Shown here one piece after another: positions 3,860-18,967 of a stretch of DNA of 26,735 nucleotides (positions within the stretch are counted from its first letter, which is position 1; each line of letters opens with the position of its first letter). Source of the stretch: a virus. Below the pieces are notes generated by a model that was not told where the DNA came from, made no database searches, and saw only the letters and a list, made by a program, of their open reading frames with translations. Position numbers and translations under genes: made by a program. The stretch covers positions 1 through 26,735 of IMG/VR virus record IMGVR_UViG_3300025312_000160; one strand, 5' to 3'.

Positions 3860-3874
3860 CAGAATATGTCTTGT

Positions 3875-4032
3875 TTCCACCTCCGGTTCTGCGTATCATC
3901 AAACGCGGAACCACTTCGATGCGCGAATTTAAACCCGACATATTCTCCCACGTCTCTTGTAGTCCTTCCTTCGCCGGATTCTCCGGATCGCATGGAGTGG
4001 AACCGCACTATGAGAGCGTGGGAGTTTTTATT
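3875..4032 (+). ncRNA. Pseudoknot RNA element, copy A (upstream of the HNH gene)
   Basis: Helix P1 pairs TTCCAC-(C)-TCC (3875-3884) with GGAGTGGAA (3994-4002). Helix P2 pairs CTCCCACG plus TCTC (3945-3956) with GAGA plus CGTGGGAG (4012-4024), with one bulged G. P1 and P2 interlock as a pseudoknot. A small hairpin, CCGGA/TCCGG (3974-3986), sits just before the 3' strand of P1, and the element ends in TTTTTATT. The same order of helices, and 25 of 32 identical bases starting at the P2 5' strand, occur in the leader at 6283-6408. The GTG start of the HNH gene is 12 bases after this tail. Confidence 0.55.
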
Positions 4033-4043
4033 GATGTGCTCTG

Positions 4044-4718
4044 GTGAAAAAATTAAGTCTTATTAATCAGCATTTTGGATCGTGGACCGTTCTCAGGTCT
4101 TATGGGTATCATCACGAGCATACGCATTGGGTTTGCCGATGCAAGTGTGGTACCACAAAAATAATCCCGTCTGGGAATTTGACATGTGGACTGTCAAGAC
4201 AATGCGCGTCGTGCGGATATAAAAACATGATTGGATGGAAGTATGGCTTAGCTAGTAAACAAACGCCACGCGAATTACGAACTTGGAGGTCGATGATGTC
4301 GCGCTGTTTTAACCGGAATAAACCTGAATACAGATATTATGGCGATCGCGGGATAACGGTGTGTAGCCGTTGGAAGAATTCTTTTGAGAACTTCCTCGCT
4401 GATATGGGGCCACGTCCGAAGGGAATGTCCATCGACCGAATCAATAACGATGGAAACTACGAGCCGAGTAATTGCCGATGGGCGACACCAAAACAGCAAG
4501 CCATGAATACTAGGTGGTTCCGTCGTCCTGAGGGAATGAGATTCGCAGGGCTTGTTTGTCTTTCGCGGGCGGAAACCCCCAAGGGAAATCTGTATGCAAA
4601 CACGTATTTTCTTTTCCGCTGTGATTGTGGGCAAGAGAAAATTATTCGGTTTTCAAGTGTGCGGCGCGGTGTAACAAAACACTGTGGTTGCCGTCAGGGT
4701 GAAAGGGAAGTGGCCTGA
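4044..4718 (+). CDS. HNH homing-type endonuclease with N-terminal zinc-binding region
   Basis: The 224-residue product begins with the [16 protein letters not shown] block and a Cys cluster (CRCKCG, then CASCG) seen in phage HNH/AP2-type endonucleases. A central HNH-like region has [30 protein letters not shown] and KQQAMNTR. The C-terminus repeats a second Cys-containing block ([23 protein letters not shown]). Such enzymes nick or cut DNA and move as free-standing homing genes. The start is GTG with no clear SD site. The upstream ATG at 4034 is in another frame and soon stops. The stop overlaps the ATG of a truncated replication gene (ATGA). It sits next to structured RNA, but the lysozyme upstream is intact, so I do not read this as an intron-borne enzyme. 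It more probably inserted between genes. Confidence 0.88.
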
Positions 4719-4849
4719 TGGCGTGGATGGAACTGCACCAAGAATTCTACAATCATCCAAAGGTTCGACGGTTTGCGGCTATTCTCAAAGAGCGTGTCCC
4801 GTTCGGGCGCGGGGTTTTTATTTTTCCCATCTACAAGAGGATTACTTGA
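4718..4849 (+). pseudogene. Truncated N-terminus of a phage replication (replisome-organiser-type) protein
   Basis: The ATG overlaps the HNH stop and opens a 43-residue frame starting [20 protein letters not shown]. This is the characteristic beginning of phage replication-initiation/replisome-organiser proteins, which are normally well over 200 residues. After about residue 25 the likeness ends, and the frame runs into the G-rich/T-rich segment at 4805-4826 and stops. The stop TGA overlaps the TTG start of the next gene. I interpret it as a remnant truncated by a deletion or insertion, with the intact replication gene now at 6413. It might still be translated as a small coupled peptide. Confidence 0.55.
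4805..4826 (+). repeat. Partial copy (C) of the pseudoknot element's 3' end
   Basis: A 22-base segment, GGGCGCGGG then G then TTTTTATTTTTC, matches the end of the leader at 6387-6408 with one difference (A in place of the tenth base) and resembles 4015-4032. Here the G-rich arm can pair with the bases just before it (GCGTG-T-CCCG, TT, CGGGCGCG), giving a terminator-like hairpin followed by T-runs. The upstream parts of the full element are not recognisable. Confidence 0.55.
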
Positions 4850-5409
4850 AATTCGAGATTAAACATCGGTTCAACAATGCTGTTCTGTTCTCGCTTAAGA
4901 CTGACTCGCTCAAATTATGCGTTGAGGCGGCGGTAAAATCCCATGCGTACCTCTCCGGTGCGAACCTCTCCGGTGCGGACCTCTCCCATACGGACCTCTC
5001 CCATACGGACCTCTCCGGTGCGACAGGTTTCAACCCAAATTTTTACACGCCACTTTTCATGCTCTTAGACCAACCTGGAAAAATTCGGGCGTACAAATTG
5101 GTCAACAAGTATCACGAGGGACCATTCAACGGCGGTATCAAATACATCGTCGGCAAGGTGGTGAAGGTAACAAGAGTCAACAGCGACGTGAATGTGCAGT
5201 GCGGATTTGGCATTAATGTAGCTACACTGAATTGGTGTATGAAAGAATGGTGCAAGGGTCGGAAGATTCTCTTAGTGGAGTTCACGGCAAAAGACATTGC
5301 CGCCATACCGTCAGGCACAGACGGGAAATTCCGCGTTCGCAAGTGTAAAGTTATCCGCGCGTTGGATTTGAAGAAAATCGGACTTACAGTTCCGAAAGAA
5401 AAGAAATAA
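4846..5409 (+). CDS. Pentapeptide-repeat-containing phage protein
   Basis: I choose the TTG at 4846 because an AGAGG site precedes it by 5 bases. The protein would begin (M)KFEIKHRFNNAVLF, the usual opening of a common phage protein with this design, whereas the frame upstream is uncharacteristic. The product is 187 residues. Residues about 30-60 hold six pentapeptide units of the A(D/N)LSx type (AYLSG ANLSG ADLSH TDLSH TDLSG AT), which form a right-handed beta-helix turn. The C-terminal part of about 125 residues (YKLVNKYHEGPFNGGIKY, VGKVVKVTRVN, FRVRKCKVIRALDLKK) is a separate domain common to these phage proteins. The biochemical role is unknown. The start overlaps the stop of the preceding remnant (TTGA). 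Confidence 0.8.
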   Translation: MKFEIKHRFNNAVLFSLKTDSLKLCVEAAVKSHAYLSGANLSGADLSHTDLSHTDLSGATGFNPNFYTPLFMLLDQPGKIRAYKLVNKYHEGPFNGGIKYIVGKVVKVTRVNSDVNVQCGFGINVATLNWCMKEWCKGRKILLVEFTAKDIAAIPSGTDGKFRVRKCKVIRALDLKKIGLTVPKEKK

Positions 5410-5418
5410 GAGGATCAC

Positions 5419-6030
5419 ATGAAACCCCAACTCACAACCAAAGCATATTTTTCTAGGCATCGTTCTGCTTGCATTGACGCTAAACAATATGCGCTCAAAT
5501 TCAAGACCGCACATGAGGCGTGGCAGAAATGCAAACGTGCTAATTGGATGCTGTGGGCTGTATATCAGGACACGAAACTTGTCAATCAAATCGGCAAGGC
5601 GACCTTCGTTGGGCTTGCAATTACATTCGCAGAACGGGCGTTGCCTGAGTTTGAAAAGAAATATCCCAATGATGCGCGACCGAGAGAAAAAATCAGGGCC
5701 GCGAAAACGTGGCTTAAGCGGAAAACGAAGAAGAACCAAGAGATTTGCGCCAGTGCCGCCAGTGCCACCCATGCCGCCAGTGCCGCCTATGCCGCCAGTG
5801 CTGTCAGTGCTGTCAGTGCCGCCGATGTCACCAGTGCCGCCTATGCCGCCCATGCTGCCATGGATGCCGCCGCCAGTGCCGCCAGTGCCGCCAGTGCCGC
5901 CAGTGCCGCCTATGCCTTCCATGCCGCCAGTGCTGCCTATGCCGCCAGTGCCGCCTATGCCGCCAGTGCTGACGAAAGACTTTGGCAAGCCAAAGTAGTG
6001 CGGCGAGCAATTAAGAATCCATTCAAATAA
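5419..6030 (+). CDS. Imm5-like protein with low-complexity Ala-rich repeat
   Basis: The 203-residue product has an N-terminal domain with AWQKCKRANWMLWAVYQD, IGKATFVGLAITFAERALPEFEKKYPND and KIRAAKTWLK. This is the pattern of phage and bacterial proteins annotated as Imm5-type putative immunity proteins. Residues about 110-190 are almost entirely ASA, AYA and AHA repeats made of GCC AGT GCC-like codons, followed by a short conserved-looking end (RLWQAKVVRRAIKNPFK). In this family an Ala-rich helical stretch sits between the two parts, here strikingly expanded. The role in the phage is unknown. The stop overlaps the next start (TAATG), and an AGAGGAT site precedes the ATG. Confidence 0.7.
   Translation: MKPQLTTKAYFSRHRSACIDAKQYALKFKTAHEAWQKCKRANWMLWAVYQDTKLVNQIGKATFVGLAITFAERALPEFEKKYPNDARPREKIRAAKTWLKRKTKKNQEICASAASATHAASAAYAASAVSAVSAADVTSAAYAAHAAMDAAASAASAASAASAAYAFHAASAAYAASAAYAASADERLWQAKVVRRAIKNPFK
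5748..5980 (+). repeat. In-frame short tandem repeats (GCCAGTGCC / GCCTATGCC)
   Basis: About 230 bases are built from 6- to 12-base units with a GCC, AGT/TAT/CAT, GCC rhythm inside the Ala-rich part of the Imm5-like gene. All differences keep the reading frame (Ala alternating with Ser, Tyr, His, Val or Asp). The near-perfect units should expand and contract by slippage. The other frames of the stretch are also open, which explains the long spurious reading frames there on both strands. Confidence 0.85.
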
Positions 6031-6242
6031 TGGCCATTAACATTGATACTCGTCCTTCCAAGGCAATGTTCAAGACACACAGCAAATTCCCTCCTACTGC
6101 GTGTGGATATTGCGATGGAAGAATTCCTGTAAGGCGTTGCGGTAGTCGTTCTAACCGTGGATTCCGATGCACGCGGCAATGGGATCACAAGCCGCCGCAC
6201 GTCCATTGTGCTGAAAATGAACATCGGAAAACTTCGTGGTAG
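6030..6242 (+). CDS. Small Cys/His-rich (zinc-binding) protein
   Basis: A 70-residue product whose ATG overlaps the previous stop (TAATG). It has CGYCDG (CxxC) near residue 25, further Cys at VRRCG and FRCTRQW, and a C-terminal HKPPHVHC. The spacing looks like a compact zinc-binding fold, and RQWDHKPPHVHC resembles the Cys/His tail of small phage zinc proteins. I do not recognise a named family. The local context (TAATG coupling, and a promoter directly after the stop) suggests it is the last gene of the transcript running through the pentapeptide and Imm5-like genes. Confidence 0.6.
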   Translation: MAINIDTRPSKAMFKTHSKFPPTACGYCDGRIPVRRCGSRSNRGFRCTRQWDHKPPHVHCAENEHRKTSW

Positions 6243-6245
6243 GAC

Positions 6246-6277
6246 TTGACAGGATGCTAAAAAAAATTGCATATTAT
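6246..6277 (+). promoter_or_regulatory. Candidate sigma70-type promoter ahead of the replication gene
   Basis: A perfect -35 hexamer, TTGACA (6246-6251), is followed by an A-rich spacer and either CATATT after 18 bases (6270-6275) or TATTAT after 20 (6272-6277). Transcription would start near 6282-6285, at the first strand of the structured leader at 6283. The -35 begins inside the end of the preceding gene's region. Confidence 0.5.
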
Positions 6278-6282
6278 GTTCA

Positions 6283-6408
6283 GTAAGTTCGGAACGGTGC
6301 TAAACAATCTACCACATACAACCCCGCGTCCCTTTCAGCCCTTTCTTTGCCAGCTTCGGCTTGCATCGTTCGGACTTACTCTGATTGGGCGCGGGATTTT
6401 TATTTTTC
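6283..6408 (+). ncRNA. Pseudoknot RNA element, copy B (leader of the replication gene)
   Basis: P1 pairs GTAAGT and GAACG (6283-6296) with CGTTC and ACTTAC (6367-6379). P2 pairs CCCGCGTCC (6323-6331) with GGGCGCGGG (6387-6395), crossing P1. A UUCG-capped hairpin (6349-6364) lies directly before the 3' strand of P1. The element ends ATTTTTATTTTTC, five bases from the ATG of the replication gene, and no SD site is visible. Topology and order match copy A at 3875-4032. The central P2 pair is A-U in A and G-C in B, and P1 has unrelated sequence but is still complementary. It could be an attenuator or translational regulator, or a stand-alone RNA of about 125 bases ending in a terminator. Confidence 0.6.
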
Positions 6409-6412
6409 TGCC

Positions 6413-7225
6413 ATGAAATGGCTCAAAATGGATTGCGACGCACAAGAAAACCTTGATATGAGAAAACTTGTTGACGCGTGGGGATGGGAATGGTATGGTC
6501 GGTATTGGGCTATTCTTGGCAAGGTTGGCATGTTGGTAACGGAGAGTCGTCAGACGTTCGCGCTACAAACGAACAACGGTGATCCATTCCCCGTCCGACT
6601 ATTGTCAAACGATCTCGGCACGACCGTTGAACGAATGACGGACTTTCTTTCCTACCTGGCAGATAATCGTTTAATCGACAAACGAGCATGGAGTGAAAAA
6701 GCCCTTATTTATGTGCCTAAATTGAAGGATAGGGCAGACGAATATACGAAGAAACTCCTGACAAAGTCCCGACAAACTCCGGAGCAAGAAGAAGAAGAAG
6801 AAGTAGATAAGAAAAAGAAAGAGAATACTAAAGATAAGATAAGAGGACATCCCACAAAACTATCAAACCCGAATCTTGATGAGGTTAAAACGCTTTGGAT
6901 TGAGAGAGAGTATGTCCGTCCCGAGGTCGAGGCTGAAAAGTTCTTTAATTACTACGAAGCGAATGGTTGGCGTGTCGGGAAAAATCCGATGAAAAATTGG
7001 AAGGCCGCTGCCGCCGGATGGAATACCAGAGCAAAGGAATATGGAAATGAAAGAACTAGCCAGAGTCCTAAAGCAAACAGTGTCGTTGAGCGTGCCACCT
7101 TCCGACATGGGCCGGAGGACGAGCAACGCTTTAAGAATCTTGGCGAGTCAATCAGAGGGATTCGCGATAGGGAAGACAACGACAGTAAGCGGGTTGGACC
7201 TGATACCGTCACCCCAAGTAAGTGA
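6413..7225 (+). CDS. Phage replication protein, replisome-organiser/DUF4373-like N-terminus
   Basis: I start at the ATG encoding MKWLKMDCDAQENLDMRKLV, because this is where the family's characteristic opening begins. The reading frame continues upstream only through the RNA leader. The 270-residue product has an N-terminal winged-helix-like domain (WYGRYWAILGKVGMLV, LSNDLGTTVERMTDFLSYLADNRLI), a very acidic then basic linker (QEEEEEVDKKKKENTKDK) and a C-terminal block (EVEAEKFFNYYEANGWRVGKNPMKNWKAAAAGW). The last is a conserved helicase/primase-loader-type module in phage replication proteins. Such proteins bind the phage origin or help load the replicative helicase. Start-site translation appears to depend on the leader, since no SD is seen. 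Its last 180 bases are overlapped by the next gene in another frame. Confidence 0.8.
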   Translation: MKWLKMDCDAQENLDMRKLVDAWGWEWYGRYWAILGKVGMLVTESRQTFALQTNNGDPFPVRLLSNDLGTTVERMTDFLSYLADNRLIDKRAWSEKALIYVPKLKDRADEYTKKLLTKSRQTPEQEEEEEVDKKKKENTKDKIRGHPTKLSNPNLDEVKTLWIEREYVRPEVEAEKFFNYYEANGWRVGKNPMKNWKAAAAGWNTRAKEYGNERTSQSPKANSVVERATFRHGPEDEQRFKNLGESIRGIRDREDNDSKRVGPDTVTPSK

Positions 7226-11929: not shown

Positions 11930-11958
11930 TTGACATTACAATATCTGTTTGGTAGAAT
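11930..11958 (+). promoter_or_regulatory. Strong sigma70-type promoter for the Y-like RNA/TROVE unit
   Basis: TTGACA (11930-11935), a 17-base spacer and TAGAAT (11953-11958): a perfect -35 and five of six bases in the -10. Transcription would start near 11965, about ten bases before the first RNA unit. The spacing and fit are the best of any promoter I found in the window. Confidence 0.8.
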
Positions 11959-11975
11959 ACGAATAATATGATTAT

Positions 11976-12039
11976 GGGATGGCGTAGATTACGGATACTT
12001 CTCCTAGAGAAAGAAAACCCGTAGTCGCTTGTTCCTCCC
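11976..12039 (+). ncRNA. Y-RNA-like unit 1
   Basis: The closing helix is GGGA-(bulged U)-GG (11976-11982) with CC-UCCC (12034-12039). An asymmetric internal loop has CGUA on the 5' side and GCUUGUU on the 3' side. The upper helix is GAUUACGG (11987-11994) with CCGUAGUC (12018-12025), 8 bp with one G-U, and the loop contains a small UUCUC/GAGAA hairpin. A T-rich stretch follows the closing helix. The layout (closing helix, asymmetric CGA-like/GC..UU loop, inner helix, large apical loop) recalls the Ro60-binding end of Y RNAs. No database comparison was possible. Confidence 0.7.
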
Positions 12040-12050
12040 TTTGTTTTGTT

Positions 12051-12115
12051 GCCGATGGCGTAGATTACGGATACTTCTCCTGATAAAGAAAACCCGTAGT
12101 CGCTTGTTCCTCGGC
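12051..12115 (+). ncRNA. Y-RNA-like unit 2
   Basis: Unit 2 starts 75 bases after unit 1 and shares its core almost exactly. The closing helix is different in sequence but fully paired: GCCGA-(U)-GG (12051-12058) with CC-UCGGC (12109-12115). The upper helix GAUUACGG/CCGUAGUC (12063-12070, 12094-12101) is identical to unit 1, with a 23-base A- and pyrimidine-rich apical loop. TTTAATTTT follows the closing helix. Confidence 0.7.
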
Positions 12116-12124
12116 TTTAATTTT

Positions 12125-18343: not shown

Positions 18344-18967
18344 TCATATACGCAACTCCGCATGTGCATTCTCCCGCAACACTGCATGTGCATTCCCCCA
18401 CAACTCCGCATGTGCATTCCCCCACAACACCGCACGTGCATTCTCCCGCAACACTGCACTTGCATTCTCCTGCAACACTGCATGTGCATTCTCCCACAAC
18501 TCTGCATGTGCATTCTCCCACAACTCCGCATGTGCATTCCCCCGCAACTCCGCATGTGCATTCCCCCACAACACCGCACGTGCATTCTCCCGCAACACTG
18601 CACTTGCATTCCCCCACAACTCCGCACTTGCATTCCCCCACAACTCCGCATGTGCATTCTCCCGCAACTCCGCATGTGCATTCTCCCACAACTCCGCATG
18701 TGCATTCCCCCGCAACTCCGCATGTGCATTCTCCCACAACTCCGCATGTGCATTCTCCCGCAACTCTGCACTCGAATTCCCCCGCAACACCAGATACAGG
18801 TTTGCCGAGCGTGACGATTCAGCGCCGCACTCCAATACAACGCGGCCGTAGACTTCGCAAATACCTGTAAGTTTGACCCGCACGGTCGCGCGGACTTCCA
18901 CATCTTTCTCGATGCGATTGTTGAGCGCATCCCATTCGGCCTGAGAGTTGACTACAATCTGCGTCAT
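18344..18967 (-). CDS. Protein with 17 tandem 8-residue repeats
   Basis: AGGAGA precedes the ATG. The 207-residue product has an N-terminal domain (MTQIVVNSQAEWDALNNRI, RATVRVKLTGICEVYGRVVL) and then 17 units of consensus A-(E/V)-L-(R/W)-(E/G)-N-A-(H/R/S), ending AELRI. The regular alternation of small and hydrophobic residues fits a beta-solenoid. I recall similar repeats in phage proteins of unknown function, with no known activity. The unit is 24 bases, and the codons are nearly identical between copies. The gene begins the coding part of the leftward operon after two small genes. Confidence 0.8.
   Translation of the reverse strand: MTQIVVNSQAEWDALNNRIEKDVEVRATVRVKLTGICEVYGRVVLECGAESSRSANLYLVLRGNSSAELRENAHAELWENAHAELRGNAHAELWENAHAELRENAHAELWGNASAELWGNASAVLRENARAVLWGNAHAELRGNAHAELWENAHAELWENAHAVLQENASAVLRENARAVLWGNAHAELWGNAHAVLRENAHAELRI
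18350..18780 (-). repeat. 24-bp coding tandem repeat array
   Basis: About 17 units of 24 bases (plus strand CAACTCCGCATGTGCATTCTCC with variants) lie wholly inside the repeat-protein gene and stay in frame. Alternative bases occur mainly at fixed positions (C/T in CTCC/CCCC, TCCGC/CACCG), so copies have mixed and recombined. Open frames on the plus strand over this stretch are by-products of the repeat. There are no spacers, so this is not a CRISPR array. Confidence 0.9.

Follow-up and report, generated by a model that had tools for sequence, protein, structure and literature searches.

A duplicated leader RNA of phage replication genes and its attenuator-like architecture in other phages

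Introduction

What does a structured RNA do when it occurs twice in one phage genome, once directly before an HNH endonuclease gene (copy A) and once before a replication gene (copy B)? The question is raised by IMG/VR virus record IMGVR_UViG_3300025312_000160, a stretch of 26,735 bases (the window), which encodes terminase, capsid and lysozyme genes of phage type. An initial annotation had proposed that the two copies share one pseudoknot, in which the strands of two helices, P1 and P2, alternate. Here, we find that the RNA is real and duplicated, that it is a leader of replication genes, and that A and B are one instance of a widespread pseudoknot or kissing-loop architecture, attenuator-like and apparently undescribed. 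In essence, this leader looks like an RNA switch that decides whether copying of the phage DNA may start. Little is known about how Bacteroidota phages control the expression of their replication genes, and for them a leader RNA absent from Rfam offers a concrete control point.

A duplicated RNA with a compensated stem

Copies A (3945-4034) and B (6322-6407) are homologous from the CCC(A/G)CGTC motif at the 5′ strand of P2 through TTTTTATT in the U-tail. Their local alignment scores 172, about 10 standard deviations above 1000 dinucleotide shuffles (mean 60, standard deviation 11, maximum 112), and the best match of each copy elsewhere in the window is the other. In both, P2 is an interrupted stem of 13 base pairs, made up of CCCRCG, a bulged U, CYC, a 2x2 step and a 4-base-pair extension, and all 13 pairs are intact in A and in B (26/26 cells). 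Four of them are changed on both sides between the copies (A-U/G-C, C-G/U-A, G-U/U-A and C-G/U-A), while slid registers, as a control, are 23-58% paired and have zero double changes. Both copies lie on the plus strand. The core of A, delimited by its alignment to B and by the P2 compensation, comprises the P2 stem with its bulged U, an inner hairpin and a U-tail at 4025-4032. Copy B, supported by the alignment, the joint fold and a test of P1, spans 6282-6407 and places its strands in the order P1 5′ (6282-6293), P2 5′ (6323-6331), a P3 hairpin (6349-6364), P1 3′ (6369-6380), P2 3′ (6387-6395) and U-tail (6396-6407).

The P1 helix of B pairs AGUAAGUUCGGA with UUCGGACUUACU. The case for an H-type pseudoknot in B is energetic: the joint topology of P1 and P2 reaches -40.8 kcal/mol, compared with -25.1 +/- 3.1 kcal/mol for shuffled sequences, none of which was as good (0/100), and P1 by itself beats chance (p 0.001 and 0.0025). 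In copy A, the candidate P1 5′ strand (3884-3892 or, in the initial annotation, 3874-3884) does no better than chance (p 0.11-0.14) and lies inside the first hairpin of an alternative and very stable fold, in which A forms two plain hairpins one after the other (3862-3945 and 3946-4023; z score -6.35 for 3862-4032). The first of these, a plus-strand 5′ hairpin domain closed by GAAUAUGUC/GACAUAUUC, thus encloses the unproven strand.

The replication gene behind B (6413-7225, plus strand, 270 amino acids) is replication-initiation or helicase-loader-like (phrog_15768, E value 2e-18). Its relatives are annotated as 'replication initiation protein' in a Porphyromonas phage or as DUF4373 in Vibrio phages, and helicase or DnaC-like loader genes adjoin them. 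Behind A comes the HNH endonuclease gene (4044-4718, plus strand; phrog_374, E value 8.5e-64), the stop of which overlaps the start of a broken open reading frame (ORF) of 43 codons (4718-4849, plus strand). This ORF is a replication-initiation gene remnant whose residues 1-26 match phrog_9474, 'replication initiation protein' (E value 6.7e-4). Copy A is therefore probably a replication-gene leader as well; that gene is now broken, and the HNH gene intervenes. The broken ORF also contains a remnant of a third RNA copy (4805-4826, plus strand), which retains the 3′ strand of P2 and the U-tail only and matches the 3′ end of B at 21 of its 22 positions.

These results bear on the initial annotation in different ways. 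Its duplicated RNA is confirmed by the alignment score and the mutual best matches, and its covariation in P2 is true, one of the four fully compensated pairs having been noticed at that time. Pairing of P1 in both copies holds for B and is unproven for A. That the copies precede different genes is correct as far as the HNH gene directly after A goes, and is probably superficial given the replication-initiation remnant that follows. The suggestion of a mobile RNA was not borne out, as the copies look like duplicated modules of RNA plus replication gene, one of them split by the HNH gene.

A further HNH gene associated with this replication locus was observed in Leeuwenhoekiella phage Arctus_1 (locus L395, 451-924). 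There, an ORF annotated as HNH endonuclease III has the N-terminal domain of the replication protein as its own N-terminus (56% identical over 39 residues).

The same architecture before replication genes of other phages

The order P1 5′, P2 5′, (hairpin), P1 3′, P2 3′, U-tail and start codon recurs upstream of the replication-initiation genes of many unrelated phages, and the leaders of different subfamilies share no stem sequence. Examples, each continuing into a U-rich tail and then the replication-gene ATG, are L032 (P1 GCUACUCGGU/GCCGGGUAGC, P2 CCCAUCACUGC/GUAGUGGUGGG), L051 (P1 UUACGACC/GGUCGUAG, P2 AAAGGCCCCAUUCGGU/ACCGAAUGGGGUUUUU) and L229 (P1 GGUAGGA/UCCUACC, P2 AAGUGUGACG/CGUUACACUU). 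Such examples were partly chosen by eye, and single P1 p-values at the loci picked in this way were not combined; the unbiased tests are two scans of leader sets for the topology. In the first, 27.6% of 58 replication-gene leaders had z < -2.5, compared with 3.2% of 252 leaders of other genes (Mann-Whitney p 4e-4); in the second, the counts were 12/59 and 8/220 controls (Mann-Whitney p 2e-5).

Cultured Cellulophaga and Flavobacterium phages have the RNA heading their replication operon (z -3.9 to -6.8). P1 is UCUCUCACAA/UUGUGAGAGG in Cellulophaga phages phi13:2 and phi19:3, GUGAGACG/CGUCUCAC in the Flavobacterium LMO6/LMO9 phages, UGAGAGCU/GGCUCUCA in Flavobacterium phage elemoA and CGGGCAGGU/GCCUGCCCG in Flavobacterium phage 11b; a single small gene separates the RNA from the replication gene in the Flavobacterium phages. 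Relatives of the replication gene in bacterial genomes mostly lack the RNA, the exception being L273, on a contig of a Nitrospira metagenome-assembled genome, which also has the most extreme score of any single locus (z -10 to -12.6).

Within subfamilies, the helices can be followed through compensatory changes, and the pseudoknot or kissing-loop strand order with such changes is found in the L005, L051/L056 and L207-type groups. The L005 group comprises 11 sequences, in which pairing is 98-100% for each of the three helices, and double-sided changes affect four of the seven P1 pairs (CUGCGAA/UUCGCAG, GUACGAA/UUCGUAC, AGUCGAG/CUCGACU and others). A covariation score of 0.360 was obtained, compared with 0.152 +/- 0.018 when shuffled (0/500), and slid registers reached no more than 0.064. 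The L051/L056 group has nine double-sided pair changes (0/500 shuffles), and the L229 group, with little variation, is consistent with covariation. In the L207/L210/L215/L218/L258 group, both P1 strands are 7-nucleotide (nt) hairpin loops, which makes this a kissing-loop pseudoknot; the loops GAGAGAG, GUAAGAG, GUAGAAG, GUAGCAG and GUCGCAU each have a perfect complement at near-constant spacing. The subfamily alignments contain frequent G-U pairs, few unpaired cells and a T-run on one strand only, and therefore the functional strand is the RNA of the coding strand. The structure of the leader RNA is well supported, and the regulatory leader with a pseudoknot envisaged by the initial annotation gains support both from B and from this covarying architecture before other phages' replication genes.

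P1 is also the most variable helix. In the L005 group it has 0.306 differences per site, compared with 0.13-0.17 in the other stems and 0.04 in the linker. The 5′ strand of P1 (X) and its complement, the 3′ strand (X′), do not follow the replication protein (Rep): in L007 and L009, Rep is 94% identical, while the leaders are 75% identical and X differs at four of seven positions; in L023 and L031, Rep is only 52% identical, while the leaders are 93% identical and have the same X. These mismatches argue against recognition by Rep and for an RNA-RNA specificity code, which may act in trans.

An upstream partner of X′ is present in B and most subfamilies. A downstream partner is limited to six loci, L046, L049, L316, L224, L230 and L268. 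X is repeated just upstream of the ATG in the first four of them (CAGCGAC, CUGCUAC, CGGUCA and ACACCAC, respectively). In L230 and L268, the last 45 bases before the replication gene hold a 10-base word in two direct copies (ATACACAATA / ATACATAACA), located between the T-run and the ATG; both copies are complementary to a word in the loop of the terminator-like hairpin, and all three change together. An automatic scan for three such strands was weakly above chance (4/71 leaders, 0.9 expected, maximum 3), with two of the four chance-like.

The ends of the RNA are suggested by sequence elements. A U-tail between stem and ATG, terminator-like at the sequence level, is present in A, B and most subfamilies. 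The motif TAnnTTTG, which is the -7 element of Bacteroidota promoters, lies upstream in 31/39 such leaders at a near-constant distance, mostly 92-137 nt before the ATG; among controls, 134/596 have it within 200 nt. For B, a putative sigma-70-like promoter, TTGACA-18-CATATT (6246-6275, plus strand), matches the consensus and ends 7 nt before P1 5′. Around B, 7 promoter-consensus matches were found and 6.7 are expected by chance, so the argument for this promoter is one of position. With promoters placed in this way, the 5′ end of the RNA appears to fall at the structure and its 3′ end at the U-tail.

Sequence searches and known RNA classes

The wider family became visible solely through position and topology. 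The search that the initial annotation had proposed, with a covariance model built from A and B, was nearly empty at the level of sequence: in 0.8 Mb around relatives of the replication gene, it gave one notable weak match (L043, 5381-5473, E value 0.08), and this lies exactly before a replication gene, ending 8 nt upstream of the ATG at 5482. Searches of A and B with blastn against 50,697 phage records returned nothing useful, DNA patterns of the RNA run over viral contigs gave chance matches mostly within coding genes, and DNA and protein searches in 50 terminase relatives found nothing convincing. In such RNAs it is topology and position, and not sequence, that are kept, which is why covariance searches by sequence miss them.

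Assignment to no known class, as initially proposed, agrees with Rfam. Neither A nor B matches Rfam 15, which includes C4 antisense RNA, HEARO and hepatitis delta virus (HDV)-like ribozymes, at E values up to 1, and a scan of 25 other loci gave no match up to 0.1; the Rfam matches elsewhere in the window are to unrelated snoRNA and lncRNA models only. In the open-access full-text literature, which was the scope of the literature search, no such leader is described. Three classes were considered individually. HEARO, brought to mind by the HNH gene, was ruled out by the Rfam result and by the short, phage-type HNH protein. An HDV-like ribozyme, considered for its strand order, was ruled out by the long pyrimidine linker after P2, the lack of a P4 helix and, again, Rfam. 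Y RNA, considered as the phage encodes a Ro60-like protein, was rejected for A and B. Bacterial Y RNA carries the Ro-binding sequence GNCGAANG ... CNUUGACC in its terminal stem, and these motifs are absent from the plus strand inside A or B.

The Ro60-like protein itself, with TROVE and vWA domains, is encoded at 12174-13562 (PF05731, E value 9e-20). Upstream of its gene (region 11931-12206), a TTGACA-17-TAGAAT promoter precedes three tandem repeats of about 75 nt, at 11978, 12054 and 12128, with T-rich ends. The first two form long stems with ends that are different yet complementary (GGGA/UCCC and GCCGA/UCGGC). These repeats, which have no Rfam match, are candidate phage Y RNAs.

Proposed mechanism and alternatives

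We propose that the leader, an RNA of about 90-125 nt close to the promoter of replication-initiation genes, would act as an attenuator or small RNA that limits phage replication through the replication gene. X, near the 5′ end of the RNA, would be complementary to X′ in the loop of a terminator-like hairpin, formed by P2 and the U-tail directly before the start codon. By default, transcription from the leader promoter would halt at the U-tail and release a short RNA. Pairing of X with X′, in cis and perhaps in trans from the released RNA, would then set the passage of polymerase or ribosome into the replication gene, and in subfamilies with a repeat of X at the ATG, X′ would have both an upstream and a downstream partner. 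Termination at the U-tail, regulated read-through and action in trans, the last of these plausible, are what we infer from sequence features. The proposal draws on the same strand order before unrelated phages' replication genes, above control genes, and on the covariation of P1 and P2, promoter-motif enrichment, U-tail, X repeats, variability of P1, leader swaps and cultured-phage operon heads. We give it an even chance of being correct.

A further, tentative step is that X/X′ is a short, fast-changing, self-complementary code controlling access to the replication gene and acting in trans, such that phages of the same code exclude each other. If true, phages of Bacteroidota and others would have superinfection immunity or incompatibility groups specified by RNA. 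Between phages that are nearly identical, the kissing strands have changed in a compensated way, which hints at immunity groups encoded by RNA, as are best known from P4 and from plasmids.

Several results weigh against the attenuator and the wider family to which we assign it. A and B have no detectable sequence in common with the other subfamilies, bar the weak L043 match, and tie to them by topology, position and gene content; similar attenuators may have arisen independently. The majority of replication-gene leaders in both unbiased sets fail the topology scan, partly owing to the position of the gene within an operon. The L224, L230 and L245 subfamilies arrange the U-run and stems differently, copies A and B are without a third X strand, and P1 of A does not exceed chance.

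Control at translation only is the alternative that fares best, and we consider it rather unlikely. Here, the leader would always be read through, X′ would open or close translation of the replication gene by pairing with either X or the region of the start codon, and the U-run would be a region of ribosome access rather than a terminator. The start codon 0-30 nt from the structure fits this, as do X directly before the ATG in four loci and the two complements of X′ there in L230 and L268; however, in most subfamilies, as in A and B, a GC-rich stem precedes a U-run in the manner of intrinsic terminators, and the ATG is without a copy of X. Somewhat less likely still is an independent gene for a trans-acting small RNA, with other targets and no more than a neighbour of the replication gene. 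An own promoter motif and terminator-like end, the small gene between RNA and replication gene in Flavobacterium phages and the present place of A upstream of an HNH gene would all suit such an RNA, but unrelated phages all keep the RNA in the same place, heading the replication operon.

Two further alternatives we regard as improbable to the same degree. Replication-initiation proteins commonly act near their own gene, and the constant linkage to replication-initiation genes would also be expected of a Rep-binding site or origin-like element, serving autoregulation or as replication origin; against this stand the leader and Rep identities of L023/L031 and L007/L009, the unconserved stem sequences, and the G-U pairs and one-sided T-run indicative of RNA. 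Convergence, in which these are ordinary long-loop terminators with a fortuitous P1, and A and B merely a duplicated terminator, draws on the non-significant P1 and plain hairpin fold of A and on the unrelated stems among subfamilies, and is opposed by P1 of B (p 0.001), by the fully paired, covarying P1 of the L005 and L207-type groups and by the enrichment over control leaders.

Other repetitive regions of the window

Two repetitive coding regions were also observed. The ORF at 5419-6030 encodes many C-terminal Ala-Ser-Ala-Ala/Tyr repeats (region 5740-5990), built on the 9-base unit GCCAGTGCC. On the minus strand, 18222-18967 is highly repetitive coding DNA of 24-base units, with several frames open on both strands, and its repeat number differs in the near-identical contig L134.

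Comparison with known systems

Antisense RNAs that control phage and plasmid genes offer the nearest comparisons. C4 antisense RNA of phages P1 and P7 is a short leader RNA complementary to sequences controlling a downstream phage gene, an antirepressor; here, the gene that would be controlled is a replication gene, and the loci scanned have no Rfam match. In plasmids, pT181 and pIP501 use antisense attenuators of their rep genes, while RNAI and RNAII of ColE1 interact through kissing loops. The leaders described here resemble these in being rep-gene leaders with a proposed attenuator before the start codon and in having 7-nt kissing loops as putative specificity determinants, and differ in that both kissing strands lie within one RNA.

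Closer still are two phage systems. As in satellite phage P4 with its CI RNA, the RNA is a leader of a phage replication operon. As summarised in the literature, the P4 replication genes are shut off by premature termination, with the arrangement seqA-CI-seqC (PMC4825925). CI pairs with complementary sequences up- and downstream of it (seqA and seqC), and we propose both similar pairing and premature termination here; CI is made by processing (PMC4825925), whereas the 3′ end of the present RNA appears to lie at its own U-tail. The pseudoknot or kissing-loop architecture and the replication genes also differ from those of P4, and a downstream partner, as a third strand, is confined here to some subfamilies and is absent from the window. 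IsrK of the Salmonella prophage Gifsy-1 exists as a short terminated RNA and a read-through mRNA that are mutually complementary (PMC4825925). With a short terminated leader and a read-through form proposed here, IsrK is the closest published logic, although it controls an antirepressor/antiterminator circuit in which the short form activates, while we propose repression of a replication gene (PMC4825925). The leader RNA, known here from its sequence and assigned to neither system, most likely works like P4 CI or IsrK.

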